This document shows positions 1,892 through 34,946 of a stretch of 36,198 nucleotides of DNA, one piece after another. Made by a program: the position numbers and the translations under genes. Position 1 is the stretch's first letter. Every line of letters begins with the position of its first letter. Under the pieces are notes generated by a model. It had not been told where the DNA came from, searched no databases, and worked only from the letters and a program-made list of their open reading frames with translations. Source of the stretch: Alphaproteobacteria bacterium (GTDB lineage: Bacteria > Pseudomonadota > Alphaproteobacteria > SP197); the NCBI GenBank assembly GCA_016869675.1, contig VGDP01000032.1:1-36198 (forward strand). Direction: 5' to 3'.

Positions 1892-3055
1892 ATGGCGACC
1901 CGTTCCAACCGCCGCGCCTTCGCCACCCGCGCCATTCACGCCGGTCAGGAGCCCGATCCTTCGACCGGCGCGATCATGACGCCGATCTACGCTACCTCGA
2001 CCTACGTCCAGCAGAGCCCTGGCGTGCACAAGGGTTACGAGTATTCGCGCTCGCAGAACCCGACGCGCATGGCCTACGAACGCTGCGTCGCCGACCTGGA
2101 GGGCGGGCGCCAGGGCTACGCCTTCGCCTCGGGCCTAGCCGGCATGGCGACCGTGCTCGATCTGCTCGACAGCGGCGCCCACCTCATCGCCATGGACGAT
2201 CTCTACGGCGGCAGCTACCGGCTGTTCGAACGGGTGCGCCGGCGCTCGGCCGGGCTCGACTTCAGCTTCGTGGACCTGCGCGACGTGGCCGCGCTTGAGG
2301 CCGCGATCCGACCCGCGACGCGCATGATCTGGGTCGAGACGCCGACCAATCCGCTGCTCAAGGTCGTCAACCTGGAGCGTATTGCCCGCATCGCCAAGCC
2401 GCGCCGCATCATGACCGTGGTCGACAACACGTTCGCCTCGCCCTGGGTACAGCGGCCGTTGGAGCTGGGCTTCGATCTGGTCGCCCATTCGGCGACCAAG
2501 TACCTGAACGGACACTCGGACATGGTCGGCGGGGTGGTGGTGGTCGGCGACGATGCCGCGCTGGCCGAACGGCTCGCTTTCCTGCACAACGCGGTCGGCG
2601 CCATCGCCGGGCCGTTCGACTCGTTCCTCGCGCTGCGCGGCCTCAAGACCTTGGCACTGCGCATGGAGCGCCACTGCGCCAACGCGCTGGCCATCGCCCG
2701 CTGGCTGGAACGGCACAAGCGGATCGAGCGTGTCATCTACCCTGGGCTGCCCAGCCACCCTGAGCACGCGCTGGCCTCGCGCCAGATGAACGGCTACGGC
2801 GGCATGGTCACGGCGATCGTCAAGGGCGGCATCGACGCGGCCCGCCGCTTCCTGGAACGCACCGAGTTGTTCGCCCTGGCCGAATCGCTGGGCGGCGTCG
2901 AAAGCCTGGTCGAACACCCGGCGATCATGACCCACGCCTCGGTCCCAGCCGAGATCCGCGCCCGGCTCGGCATCGCCGACGGCCTGGTGCGCCTGTCGGT
3001 CGGCGTTGAGGACGCGGACGACCTGATCCGCGACCTCGAGGACGCCCTTGCCTAG
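1892..3055 (+). CDS. Cystathionine gamma-lyase/gamma-synthase family PLP enzyme
   Basis: A Cys/Met metabolism PLP-dependent enzyme (fold type I), 387 aa, the usual length. The phosphate-binding YSR is at 51-53, the ETPTNP aspartate-side motif is at 149-154, and DNTFASP is at 178-184. The Schiff-base lysine is K203 in HSATKYLNGH. The C-terminal SLGGVESL and HPA motifs are typical of the family. Sequence motifs alone do not separate gamma-lyase from gamma-synthase. Its position one base after cystathionine beta-synthase makes cystathionine gamma-lyase the better inference: the pair would turn homocysteine into cysteine and could also release H2S. No strong ribosome-binding site is visible, so translational coupling to the upstream gene is likely. 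Confidence 0.88.
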   Translation: MATRSNRRAFATRAIHAGQEPDPSTGAIMTPIYATSTYVQQSPGVHKGYEYSRSQNPTRMAYERCVADLEGGRQGYAFASGLAGMATVLDLLDSGAHLIAMDDLYGGSYRLFERVRRRSAGLDFSFVDLRDVAALEAAIRPATRMIWVETPTNPLLKVVNLERIARIAKPRRIMTVVDNTFASPWVQRPLELGFDLVAHSATKYLNGHSDMVGGVVVVGDDAALAERLAFLHNAVGAIAGPFDSFLALRGLKTLALRMERHCANALAIARWLERHKRIERVIYPGLPSHPEHALASRQMNGYGGMVTAIVKGGIDAARRFLERTELFALAESLGGVESLVEHPAIMTHASVPAEIRARLGIADGLVRLSVGVEDADDLIRDLEDALA

Positions 3056-4025
3056 CGACGCAGCGCGGCCGATGGACACGGACGCACCCGTGGCGCGGCC
3101 CGCCACCGCCCCGGACCCGACCCTGGCCATCGGGCTGATCGTCCTGATCACCCTGGTGTGGGGGGCGAGCTGGCCGGCCATGAAGATCTCGGTCAGTACG
3201 TTCCAGCCGTGGACCTTCCGGGTGCTGACCACCATCGTCGCCGGTGCCGTGATGCTGGCCATGCTGCGCGCAAGCGGCACCAGCGTCCTGGTGGCACGGC
3301 GACGCGTGCCCCTGCTGATCGCGTGCGCCGTGATCAACACCACGCTGTGGATGCTGTGCTCGGCCTTCGCGCTCGAACTCCTGCCGGCCGGACGTTCGGT
3401 CATCATCGCCTACACCATGCCCGCCTGGGCGACCCTGGCGAGCGCCACGTTCCTGGGCGAACGCCTGATGCTCGGCCGCATCGCGGGTCTCGCGCTCGGC
3501 CTCGCGGGGCTCGCGGTACTGATGGGCGAAGACCTGTTCGACCTGGCGGCAGCGCCGGTCGGCGCACTTCTCATGCTGGGCGGCGCGCTGGCCTGGGCCC
3601 TGGGCACGGTCATGCTCAAGGCGGTGGACTGGGGCGTCGGGCCGGGCGTGCTCAGCGCGTGGCAGCTCTTCATCGGCGGCGTGCCAATCCTGATCGGCGC
3701 CATCGCCGTCGACGAGGGCACGGTCGCCAGCTTCGGCTGGCACGAGGGACTGGCGTTCGCCTACGTGTTCGTGTTTGGCGTGCTGCTGGGCAACTGGACC
3801 TGGTTCAAGATGATCAGCCTGTTGCCCGCCTCGATCGCCAGCATCGGCACCATCGCGATTCCCGTCGTCGGGGTGGGGTCGAGCATGGTCGTTCTGGGCG
3901 AGCCCCTGGGCTGGCGCGAGTTCGTGGCGCTGGCGCTGGTCGTCGGATCGCTGGCCGCGGTGCTCGGCCTGGCGCCAGGCGGTCTGCGCCCGCGCCCGAT
4001 CGGCCGGCGCCTGCCGCCGCGCTGA
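3048..4025 (+). CDS. DMT-superfamily (EamA) membrane exporter
   Basis: An inner-membrane protein of 325 aa with ten hydrophobic segments arranged as two repeated EamA halves; the first begins GLIVLITLVWGASWPAMK and the second begins with MLGGALAWALGTVMLK. Families of this type export amino acids and other small metabolites; the substrate cannot be read from sequence. The start is taken as the TTG at 3048, which has a GAGGA five bases upstream and overlaps the end of the gamma-lyase-type gene by 8 bases. An ATG at 3072 would give a version 8 residues shorter. Co-transcription with the transsulfuration pair makes cysteine, homocysteine or a related thiol a reasonable guess for the cargo. Confidence 0.85.
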   Translation: MPSDAARPMDTDAPVARPATAPDPTLAIGLIVLITLVWGASWPAMKISVSTFQPWTFRVLTTIVAGAVMLAMLRASGTSVLVARRRVPLLIACAVINTTLWMLCSAFALELLPAGRSVIIAYTMPAWATLASATFLGERLMLGRIAGLALGLAGLAVLMGEDLFDLAAAPVGALLMLGGALAWALGTVMLKAVDWGVGPGVLSAWQLFIGGVPILIGAIAVDEGTVASFGWHEGLAFAYVFVFGVLLGNWTWFKMISLLPASIASIGTIAIPVVGVGSSMVVLGEPLGWREFVALALVVGSLAAVLGLAPGGLRPRPIGRRLPPR

Positions 4026-4027
4026 CC

Positions 4028-4714
4028 GTGGACTACGCCCAGGTCGACCGCGCCATCGAGGCCGCCGGCATGGTCGCCCGCGGCGGCTTTCACCCGGCGC
4101 CCGAGGACGGCGTGCCGGAGCTCGGCCCCGGGCGTCCCGCGCGCACCGTGATCCTGGCCGGCGATGTGGGCGGGCGCATGTGGCCGGCGTTCGCGGCGGC
4201 GCGCGCGAACCTGGCCGCCGCCGACCCACTGGACGCGTGGACCCGGGCGGTCCTGGCGGACGTCGCGGAGCGCTGCGGCGCGGTCGCCCTGTTTCCCTTC
4301 GGCGGCCCGCCATACCTGCCGTTCCAGCGCTGGGCGCGCCGCGCCGAACCCGTGGCGCCCTCGCCCATTGGCATCCTGATCCACCCCGATTGGGGGCTGT
4401 GGCACGCCTATCGGGGCGCGCTCGCGTTCCGCGAGACCGTGGCGCTGCCTCCGCCCGACCGGCGCCCTTCTCCGTGCCTGACGTGCCGCGGCAAACCGTG
4501 CCTCGCTACCTGTCCGGTCGATGCCTTCGGGCCCGCGGGCTACGACGTGGCGCGCTGCGTCGAGCACGCCAGCGGCCCGGCCGGCGGCGCCTGCGCCCAA
4601 CGGGGTTGTCTCGCGCGCCATGCCTGCCCGGTCGGCGCCGAGCATCGCCAGAGCGCGGCCCAGGCCGTCTTCCACATGGCCGCCTTCCTGGCGGCCCATC
4701 GTCGGCCGCGCTGA
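4028..4714 (+). CDS. Small ferredoxin-like Fe-S protein
   Basis: A GTG at 4028, two bases after the exporter stop, opens a 228-aa reading frame. The first 140 residues are rich in aromatic and proline residues with no clear domain. The C-terminus carries two cysteine clusters: one with spacing C-x2-C-x4-C-x3-CP (CLTCRGKPCLATCP), and a second with C-x4-C-x5-CP (CAQRGCLARHACP), with a lone Cys between them. This is 4Fe-4S-like but differs from the standard C-x2-C-x2-C-x3-CP. Similar proteins are annotated as 4Fe-4S ferredoxin-type or epoxyqueuosine reductase-like hypothetical proteins. An electron-transfer role is plausible but not shown. It closes the rightward run that starts at 517. Confidence 0.75.
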   Translation: MDYAQVDRAIEAAGMVARGGFHPAPEDGVPELGPGRPARTVILAGDVGGRMWPAFAAARANLAAADPLDAWTRAVLADVAERCGAVALFPFGGPPYLPFQRWARRAEPVAPSPIGILIHPDWGLWHAYRGALAFRETVALPPPDRRPSPCLTCRGKPCLATCPVDAFGPAGYDVARCVEHASGPAGGACAQRGCLARHACPVGAEHRQSAAQAVFHMAAFLAAHRRPR

Positions 4715-4719
4715 CCGAA

Positions 4720-4947
4720 TCAGCGGTCCTGGTCGTCGCCCAGCGGCGTGCCGACCGGGCGGTAAAGCCGGCCGTCGCGCAGGGCCGCGATCGATAGCGT
4801 CTTGATCGTGTTCGGGTCGTTCACCCGGTGCAAGCGCGCATGCGGCACGCCGGCTGAATCCTCCATGAGGCCGTCCACCAACCAGACGATGAACGAAGCA
4901 TCGGCGTTGCAGAAGCGCTGGCCCTTGCGGATATCGAGCCTAGCCAT
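4720..4947 (-). CDS. Small conserved-looking hypothetical protein
   Basis: A minus-strand frame of 75 aa beginning MARLDIRKGQRFCNADASF and ending in an acidic tail. It has mixed charge, no signal peptide, no membrane span and a single Cys. I do not recognise the family. The case for a real gene is its position: it fills the gap between the Fe-S gene (converging, 5 bases away) and the TusA gene, lies on the same strand as TusA and begins 47 bases downstream of it. It also shows protein-like composition (GLMEDSAGVPHARLHRV, then LSIAALRDGRLYRPVGTPL) unlike the Arg/Ala-rich shadow frames around it. Confidence 0.65.
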   Translation of the reverse strand: MARLDIRKGQRFCNADASFIVWLVDGLMEDSAGVPHARLHRVNDPNTIKTLSIAALRDGRLYRPVGTPLGDDQDR

Positions 4948-4994: not shown

Positions 4995-5225
4995 TCACGC
5001 CATCTTGGCGATCTCGACGGCGGTCACGCCGCCCTCCTCGCGGGCGCCGATCCATCGGTGCCCGGTGGTATCGCAGAAGGCCCGCAAATCCGCCGCGGCG
5101 CCGGGGTCGGTCGCCAGGACAACCAACACGTCGCCTTCGGCCAGAGGCTGCATGGCCTTGCGCGCGCGCAGCACGGGCAACGGGCATTTCAGCCCCCGGG
5201 CGTCCAGTTCGACCCGCGTGGCCAT
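4995..5225 (-). CDS. TusA-like sulfurtransferase
   Basis: A 76-aa protein of the SirA/TusA family, which carries persulfide sulfur on a single cysteine to acceptors such as TusD, molybdenum-cofactor enzymes or rhodanese partners. The signature DARGLKCPLPVLRARKA is present, with the active cysteine C14 in CPLP at 14-17. The rest matches the two-helix, four-strand fold, ending GGVTAVEIAKMA. It is divergent from the TauE-type permease with 147 bases between them, and it lies upstream of the small hypothetical gene on the same strand. The exact partner is unknown. Whether it is the tRNA-thiolation TusA or a paralogue of the YedF/SirA type cannot be decided here. Confidence 0.9.
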   Translation of the reverse strand: MATRVELDARGLKCPLPVLRARKAMQPLAEGDVLVVLATDPGAAADLRAFCDTTGHRWIGAREEGGVTAVEIAKMA

Positions 5226-5372
5226 CCGAACCTCCTTCGCGGGGGTGCCGACGGGCCGTCACTGTGCCCTTCGCCGCCGCTGTGCTCAAGCCGCGCCTGT
5301 TCGGGCGCTCTATGCCTTGCCGTTCGCGATGGCGCGGTGTTATCTGCCGCGGGAGCCGGGTGCCGCCGCGCG

Positions 5373-6296
5373 ATGCACATTTACCTGCCCATTGCCGAAC
5401 TGTCGATCGACGTCTTGCTCTTGTTCGGCCTGGGCTTCGGCGTCGGCCTGCTGTCGGGCGTGTTCGGCGTCGGCGGCGGATTCCTGCTCACGCCCTTGCT
5501 GATCTTCATCGGCGTGCCGCCGCCCGTGGCGGTCGGCACCGCGGCCAACCAGATGATCGCCTCGTCGGTCTCGGGCATGGTCGCGCAGCTCCGGCGGGGC
5601 AACGTCGACATTAAGATGGGCCTGGTTCTGCTGGCCGGTGGCTTGGTCGGCTCGTGGATCGGCGTCTGGTTGTTCGGCCTGCTCGCGCGCCTGGGCCAGA
5701 TCGACCTGGTCATTCAGCTCTCGTACGTGGTGTTCCTGGGCTCGATCGGCTCTCTCATGGGGGTCGAGGCGTCGCGGGCGATCCTGCGCAAGCAGAGCGG
5801 CCGGCCGGCGCCGCCGCGCCGGCTGCACGAGCACACTTGGTTCCACCGCCTGCCGTTCAAGGCGCGCTTTCGCCGCTCGCGGCTCTACATCTCGGCTCTG
5901 CTGCCGCTCGGGCTCGGGCTGCTGGTCGGCGTCATCGCCTCGATCCTGGGCGCCGGCGGCGGCTTCTTCACCCTGCCCGCCATGATTTACCTGCTGGGCA
6001 TGCCGACCTCCGTGGTGGTCGGCACGTCGTTGTTCCAGATCACCTTCGTCGCGGCGAACGTGACCTTCCTCCAGGCGGTGACTAACCAGTCGGTGGATGT
6101 GGTGCTGGCCCTGATCCTGCTGGTCGGCGGCGTCATCGGCGCCCAGATCGGCAGCCGCTGGGCGATGCGCCTGCCCGGCGAGCAATTGCGCGGCCTGCTC
6201 GCCGCTCTCGTGCTTGGTGTCGCCATCAAGCTGGCGTGGGACCTGATCGCGCGCCCCGACGACCTCTACTCCATCGTCGCCGTGGTGCCGCAATGA
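5373..6296 (+). CDS. TauE/SafE-family sulfite/organosulfonate permease
   Basis: A polytopic membrane protein of 307 aa in the TauE/SafE (DUF81) family, associated with export of sulfite, sulfoacetate or related anions. Two repeated halves each contain the family glycine-rich turn: GVFGVGGGFLLTPLL at about 30-44 and SILGAGGGFFTLPAMI in the second half. These are separated by a cytoplasmic basic loop around residues 135-165. The ATG at 5373 is chosen because it leads straight into the first amphipathic segment; the upstream open frame is Arg/Ala-rich shadow sequence. Its TGA overlaps the ATG of the TIGR02186 gene (ATGA), so the two are translationally coupled. Confidence 0.9.
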   Translation: MHIYLPIAELSIDVLLLFGLGFGVGLLSGVFGVGGGFLLTPLLIFIGVPPPVAVGTAANQMIASSVSGMVAQLRRGNVDIKMGLVLLAGGLVGSWIGVWLFGLLARLGQIDLVIQLSYVVFLGSIGSLMGVEASRAILRKQSGRPAPPRRLHEHTWFHRLPFKARFRRSRLYISALLPLGLGLLVGVIASILGAGGGFFTLPAMIYLLGMPTSVVVGTSLFQITFVAANVTFLQAVTNQSVDVVLALILLVGGVIGAQIGSRWAMRLPGEQLRGLLAALVLGVAIKLAWDLIARPDDLYSIVAVVPQ

Positions 6297-7036
6297 GGCA
6301 CGCGGCGGCGATGGCGTCCGCGTTGCTGGCGCTGTTCGCGCTGGGCGGGCGCGGTGACGCGCAGGAGCCGTTGCTGGCCGATCTCTCGAACCACCTGATC
6401 GCGGTGACCACCGGATTCACCGGCGCCGAGCTTCTGCTGTTCGGCGCCATCGAGCAGCCGGGCGACATCGCGCTGGTGGTGCGCGGGCCACCGACGCCCA
6501 TGACCGTGCGCCGCAAGGAGCGGTTCGTCGGCGTGTGGGTCAACGAGGCGAGCGTGCGCTTCAAGGACGTGCCGTCGTTCTACGGCATCGCCGCGACCGA
6601 GGGGTTCGTCGAGCGCGCGCCGCCGGCACTGCTCCGCTCCATGCAGTTCGGCGTCGATAACCTGCGCCTGATCGCCGAGGACCGGAACACGGCCGAGGCC
6701 GGACCGTTCCGCGCGGCGCTGGTGCGACGCATGAAGCAGGACGGCCTGTTCGGCGCCGGCATCGAGCCGGTCACGGTCCTAGCCGATCGCCTGTTCCGCA
6801 CGTCGGTCTGGTTCCCGTCGAACGTGCCGACCGGCATCTACTCGGTCGAGGTCTATTTCATCGTCGACGGCGACATCGCCAGCGCCCAGACCACGCCGCT
6901 GAGTGTGAGCCGGCTCGGCATCGGCGCCGAGGTCTTCTACCTCGCGCACCGCCAGGCGATCATCTACGGCTTGGTCGCGATACTGATGGCCGGATCGGCA
7001 GGCTGGCTCGCCGGCTTCATCTTTCGGAAGGGGTAG
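6293..7036 (+). CDS. TIGR02186-family membrane protein
   Basis: A 247-aa protein with an N-terminal signal peptide (residues 1 to about 24, ending GGRGDAQ), a roughly 200-residue extracytoplasmic domain and one C-terminal transmembrane helix (about 221-243, YGLVAILMAGSAGWLAGF) followed by FRKG. It matches the alphaproteobacterial family TIGR02186, a group of unknown function usually found beside a TauE/SafE permease, as here. The sheet-rich middle (FTGAELLLFGAIEQPGD, SVEVYFIVDGDIA) suggests a periplasmic domain anchored at its C-terminus. The start overlaps the permease stop by four bases, which argues that the two proteins work together, perhaps as permease plus periplasmic accessory. Confidence 0.85.
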   Translation: MRHAAAMASALLALFALGGRGDAQEPLLADLSNHLIAVTTGFTGAELLLFGAIEQPGDIALVVRGPPTPMTVRRKERFVGVWVNEASVRFKDVPSFYGIAATEGFVERAPPALLRSMQFGVDNLRLIAEDRNTAEAGPFRAALVRRMKQDGLFGAGIEPVTVLADRLFRTSVWFPSNVPTGIYSVEVYFIVDGDIASAQTTPLSVSRLGIGAEVFYLAHRQAIIYGLVAILMAGSAGWLAGFIFRKG

Positions 7037-7043
7037 GCGCACG

Positions 7044-7538
7044 ATGGACACGAAGGACAAGACCAGCGAGAGCAAAGGTCGCCGCGTCTTCCTTGTCATC
7101 GTCGATCAGACCGAGGAGATGCGCGTCGCCCTGCGCTACGCGGCGCGCCGCGCCAAGGCCACCGGCGGGCGCGTCGATCTGCTCTACGTGATGGAGCCGC
7201 CCGAGTTCCAGCAGTGGTCGGCGATTGGCGACCTGATGCAACAGGATCAGCGCGAGGAGGCCGAACGCCTGCTGCAGGACCTGTCGAGCAAGGTGTACGA
7301 CATGGCCGGCAGCTTCCCGGTCCTGCACATCGTCGAGGGCGACCGGCGCGAGCAGGTCCTGAAGCTCCTGCGCGAGGAACCGGGCATTTCGATCCTCGTG
7401 CTGGGCGCCGGCACGGGCCCCGAGGGTCCCGGCCCCCTGATCGCGCACCTGGTCGGCAAGATGGCCGGGCGCCTGACCATGCCTATCGCCATCGTGCCCG
7501 GATCGCTAACCGACACTGAGATCGACGCCCTGAGCTGA
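7044..7538 (+). CDS. Universal stress protein (UspA fold)
   Basis: A 164-aa single-domain UspA protein. The first strand is RVFLVIVDQTEEMRVALRYA, a typical Usp opening. The nucleotide-loop region reads ILVLGAGTGPEGPGPLIAHL with the terminal segment MPIAIVPGSL, close to the G-2x-G-9x-G-(S/T) ATP-binding pattern but with an unusually Gly/Pro-rich loop. It starts seven bases after the TIGR02186 stop, making a three-gene unit permease-TIGR02186-Usp. Its function is probably regulatory or stress-related; no partner can be named from sequence. It converges on the EEP hydrolase gene with only four bases between stops. Confidence 0.88.
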   Translation: MDTKDKTSESKGRRVFLVIVDQTEEMRVALRYAARRAKATGGRVDLLYVMEPPEFQQWSAIGDLMQQDQREEAERLLQDLSSKVYDMAGSFPVLHIVEGDRREQVLKLLREEPGISILVLGAGTGPEGPGPLIAHLVGKMAGRLTMPIAIVPGSLTDTEIDALS

Positions 7539-20359: not shown

Positions 20360-21531
20360 TACCAGCGGCCTTTGATTTTGGCTCTGGGGGTCCCAAGGGG
20401 GGTGGCATTTCTGATTCGTAGGAGACCGGCAGCCATGGAGGGATGGGATGCCGGGGATAGCGTTACGGGATGACTTCGACGCTGGGTTGGTTCGGCAGGC
20501 GGCTCGGGCGTCGTCGAACGCGACCCAGGCCCGCCGGTTGCTGGCGATCGCGGCGGTCTATGACGGTCTGACGCGGACGCGCGCGGCGGAGATCGGCGGC
20601 ATGGACTGCCAGACTCTGAGGGACTGGGTCCACCGCTTCAACGAGGCCGGGCCCGACGGGCTGGTCAACCGCACAGCTCCCGGCGCCGAGGCCAAGTTGA
20701 CGCCAGTCCAGCTCGCGGCGTTGGCTGAGATCGTCGAGACCGGCCCCGATCCGGCGACCGACAGGATCGTGCGTTGGCGCCGGGTCGACCTCAAGGAGGT
20801 CATCGAGAAGCGCTTTGGTGTGACGTACCACGAGCGCTCGGTCTCCCGGCTGCTCAACGATCTGGGCTTCGCGCACCTGAGCGCGCGCCCCAAACACCCG
20901 GAGCAGGACCCTGCGATGCTGGAGCGGTTTAAAAAAAACTTCCCGCGCACGCTCGCGGCGGCGGTAGGGCATCTGCCCCGGGGTTCCAAGGTTGAACTCT
21001 GGTGGCAGGACGAGATGCGGGTCGGCCAGAAGAACGGCCTGGTCCGCCAGTGGGCGCGCAAAGGCACTCGGCCACGCCAGCCCAAGGACCAGCGCTACAA
21101 GAGCGCCTATCTGTTCGGCGCCATCTGCACGATGCGGGGGACCGGCGCCGCTGTGGTCATGCCCATCGCCAATACCCACGCCATGCAGGTCCATCTCGAC
21201 GAGAGCAGCCTGGCCGTGAAGCCGGGCGCCCACGCACGCCGCGCTGCTCATGGATCGCGCCGGCTGGCACACCAGTGCCGCCCTCGACGTGCCAGCCAAC
21301 ATCATCCCGGTGCTGCTGCCGCCACGATCTCCGGAGCTGAACCCGGTCGAGAACATCTGGCAGCACCTGCGCCAGACCTACCTCTCCAACCGGGTCTTCG
21401 CCGACCACGACGCCATCGTCGAGGCCTGCTGCGACGCCTGGAACCGTCTCGTCGACGGCCCGGGGCGCATCACATCCATCGGTCTCCGCCAATGGGCCCA
21501 CTCAATAGGTCAATATCAATGACCGTTGGTA
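20360..21531 (+). mobile_element. IS630-family insertion sequence
   Basis: About 1.17 kb bounded by TA dinucleotides (20360-20361 and 21530-21531), the target duplicated by this family. The 24-base ends at 20359-20382 and 21509-21532 match inversely at 19 of 24 positions, both starting ATACCA and sharing TTGAT inside. The element carries one transposase gene, which is broken. It sits between ubiX and cysS and does not interrupt either. The decayed ends and frameshift suggest an old insertion. Confidence 0.85.
20448..21522 (+). pseudogene. IS630 transposase, frameshifted
   Basis: The N-terminal part (from ATG 20448) reads as helix-turn-helix domains (RTRAAEIGGMDCQTLRDWVH; VTYHERSVSRLLNDLGF) followed by the DDE domain with the first Asp in WWQDEMRVG. 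After GAHA, near 21234, the frame shifts by +1. The second Asp (LLMDRAGWH) and the Glu (SPELNPVENIW) are then read from 21250 to the stop at 21520-21522. The cause appears to be a tandem CACG-CACG at 21231-21238; with one copy the reading would be GAHAALLMD, as the family expects. The catalytic triad is therefore split and the element should be unable to move itself. Confidence 0.88.
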
Positions 21532-21561
21532 TGATTCGTGGCCGACGTCGCACGGCCAGCG

Positions 21562-21607
21562 AGAACCTGGGATGCAGGGGCGGGTCTGAGGCCCGCCCCT
21601 ACCCACT

Positions 21608-21616
<9 letters not shown>
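21562..21616. terminator. Two-tier hairpin at the end of cysS
   Basis: Outer arms AGAACCTG (21562-21569) and CAGGTTCT (21609-21616) enclose inner arms AGGGGCGGG (21576-21584) and CCCGCCCCT (21592-21600). The cysS stop codon (21608-21610, minus strand) lies at the foot of the outer stem. It is probably a transcript end for the operon, lacking a U-tract. The inner part is shared with a site before gor. Confidence 0.6.
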
Positions 21617-22962
<1,346 letters not shown>

Positions 22963-34044: not shown

Positions 34045-34946
34045 GCCCCTCGCGGCGGCGCGCGCTGATCGATCATGTCCGGCAGGTTCTCGACGTCTCG
34101 GAGAGCCGGGCCTGCGCGGTGATCGGCCAGCCGCGGACCACGCAGCGACGCGAGGGGCATACCCGTGAGGACGAAGCGGCTCTTGTGGCGGACATGATCG
34201 AGCTGGCGCGGCAGTACGGGCGCTACGGCTATCGGCGGATCGCGGCCCTGCTGCGCTCGGCGGGCTGGGCGGTCAACAAGAAGCGGGTTGAACGCCTCTG
34301 GCGGCGTGAGGGGCTGAAGGTCCCCAGCAAACAACGCAAGCGCGTGCGGCTCTGGCTGAACGACGGCTCATACGTCCGGCTTCGGCCGATGCGGTGCAAC
34401 CATGTCTGGGCCTACGACTTCGTCGAGGACCGGACCCATGACGGGCGGAAGTACCGATTGCTCTGCCTGATCGACGAGTTCACGCGCGAGTGCCTGGCGA
34501 TCCGGGTCGCGCGTCGATTGAACGGCTACGACGTCATCGAGACATTGGCGCTGGCCTGTCTCGAGCGCGGTGCACCCGAGCACATCAGGTCCGACCAAGG
34601 CCCCGAGTTCATCGCCAAGGCCGTCCGGGACTGGATCACTGCGGTCGGGACGAAGACCGCGTTCATCGAGAAGGCCAGCCCTTGGGAGAACGGCTACTGC
34701 GAAAGCTTCAACGGCAAGCTCAGGGACGAACTGCTGAACGGCGAGATCTTCTACACGTTGAAGGAGGCCCAGGTGCTCATCGAATCATGGCGGCGCCATT
34801 ACAACGCCGTCCGGCCACACTCATCGCTGGGATACCGGCCGCCGGCGCCCGAGGCCGTGATCGCGGCCGTCTCGCAAGCCGCGTGGAAGAGCGCTTCGAC
34901 GGCCGCGATCCCGGCGGTCTTGGCCGACGGGCAGGTTCTAAACTAA
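34039..34946 (+). CDS. IS3 transposase OrfB (frameshift-expressed DDE domain)
   Basis: This is the catalytic part of the OrfAB fusion. After the slip at 34032-34038 the frame reads TVSPSRRRALIDHVRQ, joins the HTH_21-like region (RQYGRYGYRRIAALLRSAGW) and then the rve integrase core. The DDE triad is visible: Asp in WAYDFVEDR, Asp in IRSDQGPEF, and Glu in ENGYCESFNGKLRDE, 35 residues after the second Asp. The C-terminus has the family's HYNAVRPHSSLGYRPPAPE. An ATG at 34119 could start a shorter OrfB (275 aa). No damage is seen. Confidence 0.92.

Follow-up and report, generated by a model that had tools for sequence, protein, structure and literature searches.

The subject of this analysis is a 36,198-nucleotide stretch of alphaproteobacterial DNA (contig VGDP01000032.1 of assembly GCA_016869675.1, positions 1 to 36,198; hereafter the window), which encodes a TauE/SafE permease of the TSUP family followed by a protein of the family PF09608 (Alph_Pro_TM). 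We consider it probable that the two proteins are subunits of one TSUP transporter of sulfite or a similar sulfur oxyanion, which would most likely work outward. Comparative sequence data support well a role of PF09608 as a TauE subunit, and substrate and transport direction are suggested by the gene context of its homologs. The features concerned are:

5373–6296, + strand: TauE/SafE (TSUP) permease, 307 aa; PF01925 at 169.3 bits (gathering cut-off 32.6).
6293–6296, + strand: ATGA start/stop overlap of the TauE and PF09608 genes, read from the sequence.
6293–7036, + strand: PF09608 (Alph_Pro_TM) protein, 247 aa; 235.1 bits (cut-off 24.5), covering profile positions 2–227 of 227.
6371–6916, + strand: PF09608 codons 27–208, predicted periplasmic beta-sandwich with helical insert.
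6515–6517, + strand: invariant K75 of PF09608.
6536–6538, + strand: invariant W82 of PF09608.
6956–7024, + strand: PF09608 codons 222–244, C-terminal transmembrane (TM) helix.

The permease gene ends in CAATGA, the last four nucleotides of which (ATGA) hold the start of the PF09608 gene. A first-pass annotation of this DNA had described a permease fused by ATGA to a TIGR02186 protein; the overlap is real, and the fusion is not, as the window contains two separate genes. The family name likewise stands in part. The downstream protein matches PF09608 far above the cut-off and reaches 178.6 bits with the TIGR02186 model, below its curated cut-off of 255.25. Since 45 of 61 genomes of relatives match this model and none of the 61 passes its cut-off, the model is narrower than the family, and PF09608 is the better name for the window protein.

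Co-occurrence and Translational Coupling of TauE and PF09608

In a phylum sample of 398 genomes, PF09608 is present in 104, all listed in one class, and the clade of the window TauE (called at E ≤ 1e-50, a threshold of our choice) occurs in exactly the same 104 genomes. One of these PF09608 matches, in genome G412, lies below the cut-off and belongs to a fusion of TauE with a PF09608 helix. The two genes are adjacent on one strand in 103 of the 104 genomes, with 53–247 bp between the profile hits, and their order is therefore far from chance. That the TIGR02186-type protein is a partner of the permease had been proposed in the first-pass annotation, which would have abandoned the idea had such genes commonly occurred without TauE-type permeases. 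The opposite was found: in 24 genomes picked because they have no PF09608, the TauE clade is missing as well (no match above 124 bits), and six PF09608-positive genomes gave TauE matches of about 400 bits or more. The partner idea is thus right, and stronger than first supposed. In the samples searched, the clade of the window TauE is confined to the one class.

The same arrangement recurs at closer range. Among the relatives, PF09608 was detected in 45 of the 61 genomes with a single match per genome; flanking sequences were fetched for 40 of the 44 positive genomes other than that of the window, and TauE lies directly upstream of PF09608 in 39 of these loci. A further set of 80 named TauE loci was found with a TauE alignment. 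Two of them, L086 and L097, are cut by contig ends, and among the 78 with downstream room PF09608 follows within 250 bp in 73 and at 314–928 bp in three (L078, L102, L120). The PF09608 start is offset by −4 in 52 and by −1 in 15 of 76 TauE–PF09608 pairs, and 94 of 102 pairs in the phylum sample are in the frame matching that overlap, with eight in another frame and none in frame. These spacings show a conserved translational coupling of the two genes. Tandem gene copies of TauE from the same clade were observed at L076, L078, L082, and L156.

Fusion of the PF09608 Helix to TauE

In f69, a family of genomes of 1.0–1.5 Mb, TauE carries the last TM helix of PF09608 fused to its C-terminus, and the periplasmic domain is missing. 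G412 (1.2 Mb) encodes a TauE of 352 aa whose terminal helix aligns with the final 35 positions of PF09608 and no others. A search of 78 genomes of its order yielded a match in 70, one apiece. Eleven genomes of the sister family f127 were searched, and ten have a separate full-length PF09608 gene after TauE; in the remaining one, G530, the sequence is truncated near a contig start. In f69 the matched region extends into the additional helix; 13 f69 genomes gave ten C-terminal matches (E 2e-5 to 0.026) and three no match at E ≤ 10. Scored against 21 distinct f69 TauE tails (L158–L160 were left out as repeats of L181, L180, and L179), the PF09608 profile matched all 21 with 13.7–26.7 bits, and none of 8400 shuffles preserving the hydrophobic/polar pattern reached the real score. 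In agreement, hhalign aligned the f69 tail with PF09608 at a probability of 96.6 (E 5e-10).

A tree of 47 TauE sequences places the fused f69 group (support 1.0) as sister to f127 (0.918), and both families inside the TauE clade of the module, separated from eight further TSUP proteins (0.838). Because the fused group nests beside a family with separate PF09608, the fusion is derived, with loss of the periplasmic domain. The helix was kept in f69 as a part of the permease, and, as one lineage retained it in this form, it would represent the irreducible part of PF09608.

Predicted Structures of the Two Proteins

An AlphaFold2 model of the PF09608 protein based on 37 homologs (mean predicted local distance difference test, pLDDT, 89.5; predicted template modeling score, pTM, 0.77) consists of an N-terminal signal-type helix, a beta-sandwich at residues 27–208 with a helical insert, and a C-terminal helix at 222–244 that is followed by a basic tail. 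This agrees with the exported domain and C-terminal anchor postulated earlier. K75 and W82 are among the residues that are invariant in the homolog alignment. No fold relative stands out (best VIA Z 8.4, best Foldseek E 1.8e-3); arrestin, immunoglobulin, and RbmA were rejected as candidates, since their scores fall within the range of common beta-sandwiches and carry no functional weight. A sequence search of the PDB gave no convincing relative of TauE or of the PF09608 protein, and our literature search found no paper naming the family.

TauE comprises two half-repeats, each with a GxGGGxxxxP motif (GVGGGFLLTP at 32 and GAGGGFFTLP at 193). With helix bounds taken from a tethered model of both proteins, in which TauE is modeled with only moderate confidence, 39 sequences carry on average 3.2 lysine and arginine residues in the loop between TM2 and TM3, 9.3 between TM4 and TM5, and 3.4 between TM7 and TM8, with 0.0 at the N-terminus, 1.0 between TM3 and TM4, 0.03 between TM6 and TM7, and 0.4 at the C-terminus. 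Since the loop charges lie on one side, the two halves are predicted to be inverted, with both termini outside. The fusion in f69 of a helix running from out to in fits this topology, as the C-terminus of TauE is predicted to be periplasmic.

Cysteine is absent from both window proteins, and the best cysteine columns of the alignments are occupied in 20 of 39 TauE and 2 of 37 PF09608 homologs. Persulfide chemistry within the pair was therefore rejected, and the window TauE likewise does not have the three conserved cysteines that characterize YeeE/TsuA.

Sulfite Genes Around the Fused Permease

The context of the fused permease was counted over 20 f69 loci. In 15 of them aprM-aprB-aprA and a gene for a 117-aa protein precede the TauE fusion, and in 14 the genes after the fusion are a UxaA-type gene, a small gene, and xsc, with a YeiH-type gene additionally downstream in eight. 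The other loci contain rpmB, DUF3429, and pyrD, or rpmB alone, or nothing recognized. The names aprM and suyAB for these genes are our own assignments, guided by passages in the literature. In the one locus that was scanned (L177), AprA (996 bits), AprB (187), and Xsc (966) all score above the curated cut-offs. YeiH remains below the TIGR00698 cut-off of 232.6 with 142.7 bits and is above that of PF03601 at 220.1 bits, SuyB is supported by PF20629/PF04295 only, and the Pfam scan returned no match for SuyA and AprM. The 117-aa gene, located between aprA and the fused TauE (6515–6868 in L177; 15 of the 20 loci), has no Pfam match either.

In Pelagibacteraceae, aprAB, suyAB, and xsc belong or nearly belong to the core genome, where they produce and remove sulfite, according to a passage of PMC12636525; a role of AprBA in sulfite metabolism is described likewise in PMC5069961. 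The passages of both papers that deal with these genes do not mention a permease beside them. By gene content, the f69 genomes would be of the SAR11 type. Earlier, the window genes had been suggested to manage cysteine-derived sulfide or sulfite. The position of the fused homolog beside aprBA and xsc speaks for sulfite; the sulfide part of that suggestion found no confirmation.

TusA, Usp, and Other Neighbors of the Module

In the window the module is flanked by the following features:

4995–5225, − strand: TusA-type sulfur carrier; PF01206 at 77.1 bits, Cys14 in CPLP.
5226–5372: divergent TusA/TauE intergenic region, 147 nt.
7044–7538, + strand: universal stress protein (Usp); PF00582 at 47.8 bits (cut-off 24).

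The layout given in the first-pass annotation, a TusA gene divergent from a TauE-type permease and a Usp gene further on, is confirmed by the PF01206, PF01925, and PF00582 matches. TusA scores 50.7 bits with the equivalog model NF001423, below the curated cut-off of 78. No sigma70-type match was found in the 147-nt intergenic region, and PF09608 and Usp are spaced by 7 nt.

Across 117 loci, which are not all independent because L044 and L072 apparently stem from one genome, Usp accompanies the pair 48 times, a NifU-like gene 26 times, CcdA ten times, and TusA eight times (NifU-like and CcdA genes were named by eye). The frequent downstream Usp gene, together with the lack of a known fold relative of PF09608, could suggest that PF09608 is no transport subunit and instead acts in envelope stress or regulation, simply being expressed along with TauE and Usp. 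We regard this as quite improbable: TauE is obligatory (104 of 104 genomes) and Usp optional, and the joining of the lone C-terminal helix to TauE in f69 is not expected of a free-standing regulator. As a separate observation, the CcdA/DsbD-like gene lies 3′ of PF09608 on the same strand in its ten loci (L033, L045, L055, L061, L080, L085, L093, L096, L108, and L138), in several of them followed by a DUF3429-like gene.

The association with TusA noted in the window recurs elsewhere. A set of 41 genomes contains 63 TusA genes. Five of these are found no more than 3 kb from the module, where 0.15 would be expected, and 17 no more than 15 kb from it, against an expectation of 0.61; the Poisson calculation treats genomes as independent. 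TusA is thus a recurrent, optional neighbor of the module. In G057 (L153, 1797–3414), a rhodanese gene and TauE follow each other on one strand with TusA divergent. This proximity and the divergent arrangement shared by the window and G057 would also suit an importer of sulfane sulfur that, like TsuA/TsuB, uses TusA as cytoplasmic acceptor. Such a function is very unlikely, however, because neither window protein contains a cysteine, the best columns reach only the occupancies given above, and most genomes have no adjacent TusA.

A Putative Two-Subunit Sulfite Exporter

In the transporter that we propose, TauE would be the permease, with the glycine-rich motifs of its two inverted halves located along the path of the substrate and both termini in the periplasm. 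PF09608 would be exported via its signal sequence, hold its beta-sandwich over the permease, and pack its C-terminal helix on TauE. On the outer side, the sandwich may accept the anion or act as a gate for it. Both the physical complex and this role of the sandwich are inferences on our part. PF01925 includes a sulfite exporter, TauE, as cited in PMC7315123. The sulfite could derive from the oxidation of sulfane sulfur where TusA and rhodanese are encoded nearby, and from sulfonates where xsc and the UxaA-type gene are.

Several observations weigh against this interpretation. The tethered TauE–PF09608 model (pTM 0.50, mean pLDDT 79.7; shallow alignment, few paired rows) has no confident interface, an outcome that the first-pass annotation would have counted against its partner idea; given the tether and the thin alignment, the model speaks neither for nor against contact of the two proteins. 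The TauE profile (A2) was built from PF09608-linked TauE. G057 carries its TauE and PF09608 genes apart from each other, two of the 78 named loci (L083, L133) have no PF09608 nearby, though both genomes hold one, and PF09608 was not found in the genome of the contig-cut locus L086. The periplasmic domain is dispensable in f69, where it was lost as a whole. The substrate is deduced from genome context only; the apr/xsc context is limited to part of this one family, and outside it the neighbors are mixed (Usp, trpS, NifU-like, CcdA, and nucleoside uptake genes).

Import is also possible in the TauE family, as a Pseudomonas homolog restores growth of an Escherichia coli cysA mutant according to a passage in PMC11535334. 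The pair could accordingly take up sulfate, thiosulfate, or another sulfur oxyanion, with the sandwich as a tethered binding domain; the conserved K75, R73, N84, and W82 are located on one hairpin of the model, from the strand register probably on the same face, and could bind an anion. We consider an importer unlikely, since the fused homologs adjoin genes that produce or oxidize sulfite and not assimilation genes, and since f69 keeps the permease without the periplasmic domain.

An exporter remains our preferred interpretation, and a more specific version of it has, in our estimate, an even chance of being correct. PF09608 would then be an obligate subunit of an ancestral alphaproteobacterial TSUP exporter, its single helix being needed to build the pore and its periplasmic sandwich gating or handing over sulfite at the outer face, and SAR11-type bacteria would have reduced the system to TauE plus one fused helix within an aprMBA-suyAB-xsc cluster. 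PF09608 is linked to one permease as closely as genome data allow, and its membrane helix is naturally fused to that permease. If the proposal holds, it provides a function for an unstudied family present in every sampled genome with this permease, adds a new subunit architecture to the TSUP family, and implies that a major bacterial class, in all likelihood SAR11 included, disposes of sulfite through a two-part exporter.

Other Genes of the Window

Two genes of sulfur amino acid metabolism lie upstream of the module:

517–1890, + strand: cystathionine beta-synthase (CBS)-like protein with PALP and CBS domains.
1892–3055, + strand: Cys/Met-metabolism pyridoxal phosphate enzyme, cystathionine gamma-lyase (CGL)/synthase-like.

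Family matches show that both cystathionine enzymes reported at this position are real. As part of the module they were rejected: a CGL-like match occurs in 1 of 40 other loci (L058) and CBS in none, and the tie to transsulfuration is local. The open reading frame (ORF) at 4025–4714 encodes a Cys-rich, ferredoxin-like protein (CLTCRGKPCLATCPV) without Pfam or NCBIfam match; among the 40 fetched loci, a homolog in the same order is found in L058 only. A 75-aa ORF at 4720–4947 (− strand) has no family match and no tblastn match in these loci. By eye, the ORF at 20448–22001 starts like an IS630 transposase and then apparently changes frame, and that at 34119–34946 belongs to an IS3-type transposase.

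Comparison with Known Systems

The TauE-like C-terminal domain of MamO is one distant relative: the NCBIfam MamO model gives a weak match (31.3 bits, far below the cut-off of 800) to the second half of the window TauE, and its magnetosome function has no link to the genes discussed here. Hden_0720 of Hyphomicrobium denitrificans is a putative sulfite exporter that is 2.6-fold up with thiosulfate, according to passages in PMC11582611 and PMC12423496; it was considered as a possible member of the clade of the window TauE.

The thiosulfate importer TsuA/TsuB (YeeE/YeeD) resembles the module in being a membrane transporter for a small sulfur compound with a TusA-like protein encoded nearby. It differs in its permease family, its three conserved cysteines, and the absence of a periplasmic subunit, whereas the window pair lacks conserved cysteines. 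In SQR-PDO-TauE arrangements and the cst operons of Staphylococcus aureus, TauE is a putative sulfite/thiosulfate effluxer acting after sulfane-sulfur oxidation (PMC7315123, PMC7533328), and the rhodanese-TauE pair with TusA in G057 recalls these persulfide-response operons. However, no PF09608 subunit appears in the passages of the two papers that describe them. Pfam and NCBIfam scans assigned neither PDO nor SQR among the families next to the window module.

The sulfite exporter TauE of Cupriavidus necator (DUF81) shares the Pfam family PF01925 with the window TauE. To our knowledge, no PF09608 partner has been described for it. A further likeness lies in its setting, as the f69 homologs of the window TauE are encoded together with xsc, a gene of sulfonate degradation that releases sulfite.
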